From Halieaceae bacterium (GTDB lineage Bacteria > Pseudomonadota > Gammaproteobacteria > Pseudomonadales > Halieaceae), in the NCBI GenBank assembly GCA_902623175.1, contig CACNSR010000012.1:1-64000 (forward strand): DNA of 64,000 nt. The letters are read 5' to 3'. The notes under the pieces are model-generated. The model was given only the letters and a program-made list of their open reading frames with translations. It was not told the DNA's origin and ran no database searches. Numbering within the stretch: the first letter of the stretch is position 1; each line of letters starts with the position of its first letter. This document shows, one piece after another, positions 9,899-30,314 of this stretch. The translations under genes were made by a program, and so were the position numbers.

Positions 9899-10336
9899 AT
9901 GCCCTACCAAAACATTCTCGTGGCAGTTGACCTCGGCGCCACCACCGAAACCGTCATTCAGCGGGCGGCGTCACTGACCAACCAAAATAACGCGCAGCTG
10001 CATGTGCTGCACGTGATAGAACCGCTGGCCATCACATATGGCGGCGATATCCCCATGGATTTCTCTGCCATTCAGGAGGAGATTCAGGGGCAAGCCAAAG
10101 ACCAGCTGGACAAGCTCTGCGCCACGCTGTCAGTGCCCGAGAGCAACCGCCATCTGGTGACGGGGCGCCCTGAATCAGAGATTCCCACTCAGGCCAAAGC
10201 CGTTGCCTGCGACCTGATTGTGGTGGGCTCCCATGCGAGGTGGGGTTTGGCGCTACTGTTGGGGTCAACCACCGACGGTGTCATGCACGGCGCCGAGTGT
10301 GATGTGCTCGCCGTAAAAGTCGACGCGGCGCTCTAA
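9899..10336 (+). CDS. Universal stress protein (UspA family)
   Basis: A single Usp domain of 145 residues from the ATG at 9899 (MPYQNILVAVDLG), with GGAG about eight bases upstream; the track start at 9836 adds an implausible leader. The ATP-binding-type loop appears as IVVGSHARWGLALLLGSTTDGVMHGAECDVLAV, close to the G-2x-G-9x-G(S/T) signature with the first spacing altered. Related proteins accumulate in stress or stasis. It is a single-gene unit divergent from the membrane protein at 9375. Confidence 0.93.
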   Translation: MPYQNILVAVDLGATTETVIQRAASLTNQNNAQLHVLHVIEPLAITYGGDIPMDFSAIQEEIQGQAKDQLDKLCATLSVPESNRHLVTGRPESEIPTQAKAVACDLIVVGSHARWGLALLLGSTTDGVMHGAECDVLAVKVDAAL

Positions 10337-10516
10337 CGCACAGGTCGCACTGACAAAGGACCGTGGCCGAATCGGCGCCATCAGCCCACAGCTGTACCGA
10401 CGCTGGCAGACGGAGCTTGGGCGACTAGCGCGAGACCATGGCGATGAAAAGTCCGCTTTATTCGCTTACCCACCGATGAAGCAACGCTTAAATTGAGTGC
10501 CTAAGCCGATAGGTTA
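10337..10516 (+). other. Intergenic stretch with a possible gene-end remnant
   Basis: In one plus-strand frame, running to a stop at 10494-10496, the translation reads like the C-terminus of a protein (SPQLYRRWQTELGRLARD...FAYPPMKQRLN) but has no usable start codon or ribosome site, and its 5' part overlaps usp. I do not recognise the family. It may be a remnant of a deleted gene or chance. Confidence 0.25.
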
Positions 10517-11693
10517 TTAATCGACTGACCGCAGGGTCACGGATTGCTCCGACATGTACTTTTCCCACCAATAATGAAAGTTGCGGATCCGCCTTTCATG
10601 ATGAGAAATCCAGAGCCCCGTCATCCCGCGTGAGTGCAGACCTCTCTGCACGCCAGCAAGACACGACGCATCCTGATCCAACAAGAGCCCTGAGGACTGC
10701 TCGCCATAACGATAGAAATTATGGTCAGGGCGCTCATCAACACTGCCATCACCCAACTCGACGAACAAGTTGACTGCGCCGGCTTTAGCTCCAGCTGTAA
10801 CCTCCCCTTTGGGAACACGATTAAAAATCATGCGATGGAAATACATCTTGTCAGGGTCAGTCGGATGCGGACGATGTCGGAACATCCACATCTGCTCGCC
10901 AAAAAGATTAAACGTGATATTCGGAAAAACGTTGTAGTGGTAGTCCGCCGTTAGCTGATCGTCGGTAAGCTTTGAAAAATCAAGGCTGTTTTCATTAGTC
11001 ATTGAGCGTTTGTGCGCCGCCACTGCACCGCGCAGGTTGGTCACGTCACCCTCGAAAGACTCGACCGGAAAACCCTCTGATTTCAGATATTCCACCATCG
11101 TCTGGTTGAGCGCTTTATCCTCGCCAATTTTTCGGGGGCTGGGAATATACATGGGCGCAAGATGCTCAGGGACAATACCGAGATATTCGAACAAAGGTTC
11201 GATATCTGGGTCCATCGATATCCAGATAAACCCTCCCCATGCTTCACATCTGACCTCTTTAAGGCTCAGCTCATCTGCGGGCACACCTTGAGGAAAGTCA
11301 TGCGCCTCGGGTATCTCTTTGATGCTGCCATCCAAATAGTATTGCCAGCCATGAAAGCCACAGCTTAGGTAAGGGGAATTTCCACACTCCGATGCCTTCA
11401 GTTGATTTCCCCGGTGCTGACAAACGTTGTAGAACGCGCGAACAACACCATCCTCTGCATGGGTTACGAGAACTGACTCTCGAAGGTTTTCGAAAACAAA
11501 AAAATCGCCGGGCTCGGCAACATCGCGAGCCGCACCGGCCAGCAACCAGGTCTTCGACCAAATGCAGTCATCTTCCAGCTTTAGAAATACCGGATCTGTA
11601 TAGCGATCAACGGGAATACGCTCAAACCCAAGCTCAGGCTCCGGTGCTTTGGCTGTAGGCGTAAATACGAAGTCAGCGGGCTTGTCTATTCAT
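10517..11693 (-). pseudogene. Rieske ring-hydroxylating oxygenase alpha subunit, damaged
   Basis: Rieske 2Fe-2S domain is intact (VCQHRGNQ...CGFHGW), and the C-terminal half matches the SRPBCC-type catalytic domain (LTADYHYNVFPN, GLWISHHERRIRNFH). Two defects are visible. First, the catalytic-iron segment normally found between 'HLAP' and 'SPR' (NWK...E-x-YH-x4-HP, about 60 residues) is absent, so both iron-ligand histidines are missing. Second, conserved N-terminal sequence (FERIPVDRYTDPVF) is in frame upstream of the track start at 11545, yet no standard start lies in that frame; a good SD (GGAG) and ATG sit at 11693 one frame off, joined if one C of the CCC run near 11680-11678 is surplus. 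Likely inactive as an oxygenase. Confidence 0.75.
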
Positions 11694-11790
11694 TATGCTC
11701 CGTGTCTGCTTCTCGACAGCGCGGATCAGGTTATCAATCAGTCACAGCAGTAAGCAATGCGTCCCTCCGGGCACAGATGCTGGCAGGGTG

Positions 11791-12018
11791 CTATTCGCCC
11801 ATCACGAACGCCCTGAGCTGCGCCCCGTCGAAGGGCCACCCCAACTCGCGGCCCGATGCATCCTTCACGACCGGGATTCTGAAGCCGTACTGCTCCATCA
11901 AACCCAAGTCGTCAGCGATATCTACCGCCCGAAAAACATGCCTCCCCTGCTCGAGTATCTCTTCGGCATGCTCGCAGAGATGGCAGCCGGATGTGGTGTA
12001 GAGTGTAAGCGGCAGCAT
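11791..12018 (-). CDS. Glutaredoxin-like DUF836 protein
   Basis: A 75-residue thioredoxin-fold protein from the ATG at 12018 (MLPLTLYTTSGCHLC). It keeps a redox-type C-x-x-C (CHLC) in the first helix and the cis-proline region (RIPVVKD). The longer track ORF is antisense to the methyltransferase gene and is not used. It is divergent from the SpoU-family gene, with 24 bp between the starts. Substrate is unknown. Confidence 0.85.
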   Translation of the reverse strand: MLPLTLYTTSGCHLCEHAEEILEQGRHVFRAVDIADDLGLMEQYGFRIPVVKDASGRELGWPFDGAQLRAFVMGE

Positions 12019-12042
12019 GATGAATTCTCCGTTGGGGTGAAC

Positions 12043-12810
12043 ATGCCTGAACAGTCCGATGCAGCATGGCATCCCGGCAAGGGCCTGACACTCTATGGCC
12101 GAAAGCCCGCGCTGGAGGCGCTGGAAGACGCGTCGCTGACCATTCACTGCCTGCATCTGGCCAACAGCAACCGGCCGACCGGCATTATCGCCCAAATCAT
12201 CTCAGAAGCAGAGAACCGGGGTATCGCCATTCGCTACCACGACCGGCAGGCACTCTCGCGGATATCGAGAAACGGCCGGCAGGATCAGGGGGTTGCGCTC
12301 GACGTCGTGTGCCCCAACTTAATGATGCTCGAGGCCTTCATGGATCTCCCGGAAAAGCCGAGAACCGTCCTAGCGCTTGATGGCGTGACGAATCCACAGA
12401 ATGTCGGGATGATTATTCGCTCGGCGGTCGCTGCCGGGGTGGACGGAGTGCTGTATCCCAAACGCGGCATCGCCTCATTGGGACCCCTCGTCATCAAAGC
12501 GTCAGCGGGAAATGTCTTCCGGGCGCCCATCATACGCTGCGACTCGACGGCGGCCGCGCTGACCACCCTCAAGGTCTATGGCTACCAGATCGCTATTTTG
12601 GAAGCCAAGGCGACAACGTCGCTGTTTGAGTTCAAAGCCGCCGACAACCTGGTCTGCGTGCTTGGGGATGAGAGCGAGGGTATAGGGCGAGAGGTCGCGG
12701 AGTTGGCTGACACCCGCCTCACTATCCCGATGGCAAATGGTGTGGAATCACTAAACGTCGCGGTGACCGCGGCGCTCGTTTCCTTTCATCTCGGGCAGAC
12801 CCCAGACTGA
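12043..12810 (+). CDS. SpoU/TrmH-family RNA 2'-O-methyltransferase
   Basis: SAM-dependent RNA methyltransferase of the SPOUT class, 255 residues from the ATG at 12043; the track start at 11695 runs through the antisense glutaredoxin gene. It has an N-terminal substrate-binding domain (LYGRKPALEALED) and the trefoil-knot catalytic domain with motif 1 (DGVTNPQNVGMIIRSA), motif 2 (VLGDESEGIG) and motif 3 (IPMANGVESLNVAVTAAL). Overall plan is RlmB/TrmH-like; which tRNA or rRNA site it modifies cannot be read from sequence. Confidence 0.9.
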   Translation: MPEQSDAAWHPGKGLTLYGRKPALEALEDASLTIHCLHLANSNRPTGIIAQIISEAENRGIAIRYHDRQALSRISRNGRQDQGVALDVVCPNLMMLEAFMDLPEKPRTVLALDGVTNPQNVGMIIRSAVAAGVDGVLYPKRGIASLGPLVIKASAGNVFRAPIIRCDSTAAALTTLKVYGYQIAILEAKATTSLFEFKAADNLVCVLGDESEGIGREVAELADTRLTIPMANGVESLNVAVTAALVSFHLGQTPD

Positions 12811-29108: not shown

Positions 29109-30314
29109 ATGAAGCCCACTGATCCCATCGCCTCCACCGCTGATATCAGCCCTCACGGCACGGCTGATCCGGCCATTTCTGAGAGTAACGCAATACCCAA
29201 CCGGGCTTACACCAGTTACGACGAATGGCTGAAAGAGCGGGATACGGTCATCGCTCAAACCTGGGCGGGACTGGGGTTGAGCAGTGACATTGCCCAACCC
29301 GGTAGCGTCTACCCTGTCATGTTTATGGGGCTGCCGCTGGTGATGGTGCGTGACCAACGTGGGCGCGCTCGAGTGTTTCACAATGTGTGCCGCCATCGCG
29401 GCATGCAACTGGTCGTCGAGGCCGGTGACGCAGGCTTGGTCATCCGGTGTCCGTATCACAAGTGGGGCTATGATCTCAGCGGACAGCTGAAAACCACCCC
29501 CAATATCGGCGGCATGGGCGTACACGAAGTGGCTGGCTTTGATTGCGCTGATCACGCTTTGACCGGGGTTCGCTGCGATGAGTCCATGGGCGTGGTCTTT
29601 ATTAACATATCCGGTGATGCACCCGCATTGTCAGAGCATTTGGAGCCGCTACTATCGCGCTGGCACGACCTCGCGGGGCCGGCATTCGACCAGCAACTCA
29701 TCGCCGACACCAGTGATCATGGCTCGATGGAACTGCTGCTCAACAGCAACTACAAACTGGCGGTGGAGAACTATTGTGAATCCTACCACCTGCCCTTCGT
29801 CCACCCCGACCTAAATACCTACTCACCACTCGATGCGCACTACAACCTGACCGTTGATCCGCTCGCCTCAGGGCAAGGCACCCGGGTATATGATTTGACA
29901 CGGGGAGACAGCGAACCGCTGCCGCAGTTTTCAGAGTGGGATAGTAAGCGCCTCAAAACCGCGGAGTACATGTCGCTCTACCCCAACGTTTTGCTGGGCA
30001 TTCAAGCCGACCACTTTTTCGTCATTCTGCTGATGTCAGAAGCCGTAAATCAGACCCGGGAGCGGCTACAGTTTTTGTATGCCGATGCCGCCGCCATTGA
30101 TGAGATTTACAGGGCGCGGCGTGAGAACCTGCACACCGCCTGGAGCATTGTGTTTGCTGAGGACATTTCGGTGGTAGAGGGCATGCAAAGAGGCCGCGCC
30201 TCCCCTGCTTTTGATGGCGGACTGTTTACACCACTCATGGATGTGCCCACGCACCATTTTCACCAGTGGTTTCTCTCGCGTCTGGAGCAGAACACCACTC
30301 GCGTGGTGAGCTGA
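29109..30314 (+). CDS. Rieske oxygenase alpha subunit, betaine/choline-monooxygenase-like
   Basis: A 401-residue mononuclear-iron oxygenase. The Rieske centre uses C94-x-H96 (NVCRHRGMQ) and C114-x2-H117 (RCPYHKWGY). The catalytic-iron segment is complete (NYKLAVENYCESYHLPFVHP) with both histidines, in contrast to the gene at 10517. Overall plan is like GbcA and choline monooxygenase. No reductase gene is adjacent. It lies 130 bp after the flavoenzyme; the spacer holds an imperfect GCCCGA/TCGGGC hairpin without a T-run. Confidence 0.92.
   Translation: MKPTDPIASTADISPHGTADPAISESNAIPNRAYTSYDEWLKERDTVIAQTWAGLGLSSDIAQPGSVYPVMFMGLPLVMVRDQRGRARVFHNVCRHRGMQLVVEAGDAGLVIRCPYHKWGYDLSGQLKTTPNIGGMGVHEVAGFDCADHALTGVRCDESMGVVFINISGDAPALSEHLEPLLSRWHDLAGPAFDQQLIADTSDHGSMELLLNSNYKLAVENYCESYHLPFVHPDLNTYSPLDAHYNLTVDPLASGQGTRVYDLTRGDSEPLPQFSEWDSKRLKTAEYMSLYPNVLLGIQADHFFVILLMSEAVNQTRERLQFLYADAAAIDEIYRARRENLHTAWSIVFAEDISVVEGMQRGRASPAFDGGLFTPLMDVPTHHFHQWFLSRLEQNTTRVVS

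Follow-up and report, generated by a model that had tools for sequence, protein, structure and literature searches.

The window examined here is a stretch of 64,000 nucleotides from the draft genome (65 contigs, 2.4 Mb, 85% completeness) of a marine bacterium of the Luminiphilus type, and it includes the remnant of a gene for the alpha subunit of a Rieske oxygenase. This remnant was compared with 21 close full-length homologs (L013 to L033) found in a public collection in which each species is represented by a single genome, among them the intact Luminiphilus/Halieaceae genes L013 (accession number JAHEJH010000311.1) and L018 (accession number CABYND010000037.1). The genomes carrying the 21 homologs are nearly all metagenome-assembled or single-cell drafts, several of them from Luminiphilus, Halieaceae or Pseudomonadales. 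The features of the locus are as follows, with the basis for each in brackets.

9899 to 10336 (+): gene for a universal-stress-type protein, conserved left neighbour (locus comparison)
10517 to 11689 (-): remnant of the gene for the Rieske oxygenase alpha subunit, with 390 of about 453 codons remaining, stop codon TAA (21 homologs)
10670 to 10678 (-): D-Q-D of the LLLDQD segment, kept (alignment; putative ligand role taken from the family)
11153 to 11160 (-): deletion junction, at which one copy of TTGCGCCC is left; relatives have two Ala-Pro sites here, separated by 189 bp (DNA alignment)
11351 to 11422 (-): intact Rieske [2Fe-2S] motif, C-x-H-x17-C-x2-H (sequence, Pfam)
11673 to 11693 (-): decoy ATG, followed out of frame by a 6-codon reading (MNRQAR) and a stop (frame, alignment with L013)
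11687 to 11689 (-): former start codon, now ATA, which is ATG in intact relatives (DNA alignment)
11791 to 12018 (-): glutaredoxin-like gene, conserved right neighbour (locus comparison)
12043 to 12810 (+): RlmB-like RNA methyltransferase gene, conserved right neighbour and control for rates (locus comparison)

The frame from 11689 to 10517 on the reverse strand is open throughout and encodes 390 residues, with TAA at 10519 to 10517. The pattern C-x-H-x15-17-C-x2-H was found at C90, H92, C110 and H113 (coordinates 11422 to 11351), and Pfam matches were obtained to PF00355 (6.5e-16) and to PF00848 (5.9e-15), the latter only from position 71 of the 208-position profile. The Rieske centre is intact, as a preliminary description of this sequence had stated, and the remaining part of the C-terminal domain is kept. 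No second copy of the gene was found in the 65 contigs of the source genome, which is 85% complete and in which the best paralog is 41% identical. About 13 further Rieske oxygenase genes, mostly 30–41% identical in the Rieske part, are present in this genome, which looks a large set for 2.4 Mb, and one of them is located inside the window (about 29190 to 29642, forward strand).

The locus in related genomes

The gene order around L013 (rlmB, glutaredoxin-like gene, oxygenase, stress-protein gene) is the same as that in the window. The contig of L018 breaks off 20 bp upstream of the start of the oxygenase gene, and its agreement with the window is on the stress-protein/topA side; thus, the stress-protein side is common to both, and the glutaredoxin/rlmB side is shown for L013. 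The part of the protein that is kept has 91–93% amino acid (aa) identity to L018 and L013. The remnant is the ortholog of the intact Rieske oxygenase (453 aa in L018) found at the matching locus in L013 and L018.

In all 27 other genomes of the genus in which the locus was read, including the close relative G022, the glutaredoxin gene lies directly next to the stress-protein gene and the oxygenase is missing from the site. The oxygenase is an accessory single gene that is missing at this site in most of the genus. One of the 27 genomes with an empty locus, G025, carries the oxygenase (L019) elsewhere in the genome. As the locus is empty in these genomes and a copy is found elsewhere in G025, the oxygenase has the behaviour of a lone accessory gene whose position can shift. 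Its presence as an insertion between the glutaredoxin and stress-protein genes was seen in only a few genomes (comparison of 9899 to 12810 in the window with L038 to L066). The branching order of the window sequence, L013, L018 and G022 received support of only 47–49, and G022 may have lost the oxygenase or may never have had it.

The genes next to eight of the homologs vary (thiolase, amidohydrolase, luciferase-like, dienelactone hydrolase, MFS, SOUL and aldo-keto reductase), and therefore imply no substrate or reductase. Conserved gene partners were for this reason rejected as a clue to function. The close homologs L024, L026, L028, L032 and L033 are in drafts labelled Gemmatimonadetes, Alphaproteobacteria or Klebsiella pneumoniae, and it is likely that at least some of these labels reflect mis-binning or mislabelling.

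Loss of the iron-site segment and of the start codon

Alignment with the 21 homologs revealed that exactly 63 residues (189 bp) are absent from the remnant in this assembly, between HLAP and MYIPS. The preliminary description had recorded about 60 residues including the iron site as cleanly missing in frame, and this was confirmed, but the junction lies a few residues before the position given there (between HLAPM and PSPRK). The segment is present in all 21 homologs and the deletion form was found in none of them; the possibility, raised at that stage, that relatives might all lack the segment does not hold. The lost stretch includes N198, the bridging Glu (E208) and both iron-ligand His residues (H211 and H216; L018 numbering), which belong to the sequence N-W-K-T-S-V-D-I-F-S-E-T-Y-H-V-R-G-V-H in L018. 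Across 15 of the homologs, counted by hand, 44 of the 63 lost positions are invariant, so that conservation in this protein is highest in the very block that is missing. A 2-His-1-carboxylate iron site with a bridging Asp/Glu was not found in the remnant, where only LLLDQD is left; by analogy with the family, the Asp of this segment is likely to be the third iron ligand, of which the two partner His residues are missing. In the DNA alignment with L018, no further insertions or deletions were present from the start codon to the end of the conserved part.

The window DNA at 11164 to 11144 is CATCTTGCGCCCATGTATATT. The left Ala-Pro site is CATCTTGCGCCCTACGAA in L013 and the right Ala-Pro site is TTTATTGCGCCCATG in L018, and the distance between the two sites is 189 bp in both. 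Within one genome, the in-register run common to both sites is GCGCCC in L013, L018, L019 and L023, and TTGCGCC in L016, giving a repeat at the breakpoints of 6 bp in the nearest relatives and of up to 8 bp, TTGCGCCC, in the inferred ancestor. Slippage between the short (TT)GCGCCC copies, or recA-independent recombination involving them, is the probable cause of the loss of the 189 bp. Such a deletion accounts for the exact ends of the gap, and its length is in frame because both copies encode Ala-Pro in the same frame.

Alternatively, the 189 bp may be present in the cell and have been lost from the consensus through a chimera formed at the short repeat during amplification or assembly, in which case the gene would carry the start-codon change only, or would be intact and use ATA weakly. 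Short repeats favour chimeras in amplified single-cell DNA, the genome is an 85% complete draft, and the remainder of the gene reads well. However, a repeat of 6–8 bp is far below the usual word length of assemblers, and the start codon, at a separate site, is damaged too, which speaks against a wholly artefactual picture. An artefact of this kind is considered unlikely.

The homologous start codon has changed from ATG to ATA by substitution, with no insertion or deletion, in the DNA alignment, where ATGAACAAG in L018 and ATGAACAAA in L013 correspond to ATAGACAAG in the window (coordinates 11689 to 11681). The wider context is ...AATAAATGAACAAGCC in L018, ...ATATGAATGAACAAACCC in L013 and ...TAATGAATAGACAAGCCC in the window. 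A frameshift at the start, previously proposed as a one-base shift from the ATG at 11693, was consequently rejected; that ATG is an out-of-frame decoy, and the intact L013 also has an ATG at the matching position, likewise out of frame. The first in-frame ATG, GTG or TTG is the TTG at 11545, which corresponds to residue 49 and falls, after 48 residues, inside the conserved N-terminal part. An AUA start is at best very weak.

With the start codon, the bridging Glu and the two His ligands all missing, no active enzyme would be expected to be made from the remnant. Retained activity, through an iron site assembled from different residues, could be argued for from what remains of the catalytic domain, including the LLLDQD segment. 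This is scarcely credible, given that the best-conserved stretch of that domain has gone together with the bridging Glu and both His ligands and that there is no usual start codon.

Selection on the remnant and its interpretation

A codon model written for this analysis was used to compare omega on the branch leading to the window sequence with omega elsewhere. For the oxygenase, omega was 0.178 on the window branch and 0.069 elsewhere (2dlnL 7.3), and omega = 1 was rejected (2dlnL 21.8). With six taxa, three topologies agreed (2dlnL 5.1–5.6, and 15.5–22.3 against omega = 1). The preliminary description had proposed a test for purifying selection on the remainder; the values obtained apply to the branch as a whole, on which the intact rlmB gene shows the same mild rise (omega 0.169 versus 0.080, 2dlnL 4.6). 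In view of this control, the raised omega, which had at first looked like partial relaxation, was dropped as proof of decay. The rise in rlmB was also observed in its own right, and the whole window lineage may be evolving under weaker selection.

Neutral decay was not detected, the deletion being in frame with no stop after it, and omega on the branch being about 0.18 with omega = 1 rejected. The rate test indicates no more than that evolution along the branch was mostly constrained, and therefore that the lesions are recent. Of 171 sites that are otherwise invariant, four are altered in the window sequence (G101E, G235S, D285H and D307N), compared with none in L013, one in L018 and two in L019, which may be weakly suggestive of decay.

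The remnant is very probably a pseudogene of recent origin, derived from the gene for an accessory Rieske non-haem iron oxygenase, as it has two separate disabling changes relative to intact orthologs at the same place and its form is found in no relative. Loss of 63 residues and of the start codon, relative to the intact L013 and L018, amounts to disabling lesions of the kind that mark bacterial pseudogenes. The two lesions are the absence of 189 bp, probably through the short repeats, and the ATG-to-ATA substitution at the start, and a recent loss would explain why the rest of the sequence is well preserved. The earlier suggestion of a recent loss is the better supported of the two offered.

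The other, a repurposed Rieske electron carrier, would require a truncated protein that lacks the catalytic iron, acts as an electron carrier or partner binder, and starts at ATA or at the TTG at 11545. The open frame of 390 codons, the intact Rieske motif and an omega below 1 are in its favour. However, the form is present in none of the 21 relatives, no ATG, GTG or TTG is in frame before residue 49 for the full remainder to be made, and a low omega is also expected for a recent loss, where most of the branch predates the loss. This repurposing is accordingly regarded as very unlikely, and a loss of the iron centre in one step, with survival as an electron carrier or as a mixed-trimer partner of the other Rieske oxygenases of the genome, as more improbable still. 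Structures predicted for the intact L018 protein and for the remnant were both of low confidence (mean pLDDT 45 for each), probably because the alignment was shallow, and folding of the remnant therefore cannot be judged from them.

On this reading, the pseudogene is a case of ordinary gene decay. It provides a clean snapshot of the loss of an accessory oxygenase within one species, by repeat-mediated deletion and loss of the start codon, and it calls for caution when oxygenases are counted in draft genomes, as a gene can be dead although its frame is open and its Rieske domain intact.

Comparison with known systems

The closest systems are the intact orthologs L013 and L018, which represent the same gene and differ from the remnant in having the 63-residue iron-site segment and an ATG start. 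Rieske oxygenase alpha subunits of the glycine betaine and carnitine monooxygenase type, namely GbcA (NF058607) and CntA (PDB 6y8j), resemble the family in the order of the Rieske and catalytic domains, whereas the window copy differs from both in lacking the iron site. The family scores far below the cut-off for the GbcA equivalog, as NF058607 gave 123 bits with the intact L018 and 87 bits with the window sequence against a cut-off of 670. In the intact family the bridging position is occupied by Glu (E-T-Y-H), as it is in CntA (E205). Mutating this Glu is by itself enough to abolish activity in CntA, a related enzyme (PMC7948474), and the remnant has lost the bridging Glu plus both His ligands. 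A literature search found nothing useful on Rieske proteins with a lost iron site, nor on this gene in Luminiphilus.

Deletions between short direct repeats are known to give rise to pseudogenes, for example in Streptococcus agalactiae, where 70% of indels over 4 nt are flanked by repeats whose median length is 8 nt (PMC3637634). The window case is similar in the repeat of 6–8 bp at both breakpoints and in the small size of the deletion, but involves a single gene in a draft genome and a deletion that happens to be in frame. Repeat-mediated events of this sort are a common source of small deletions in bacterial genes undergoing decay.
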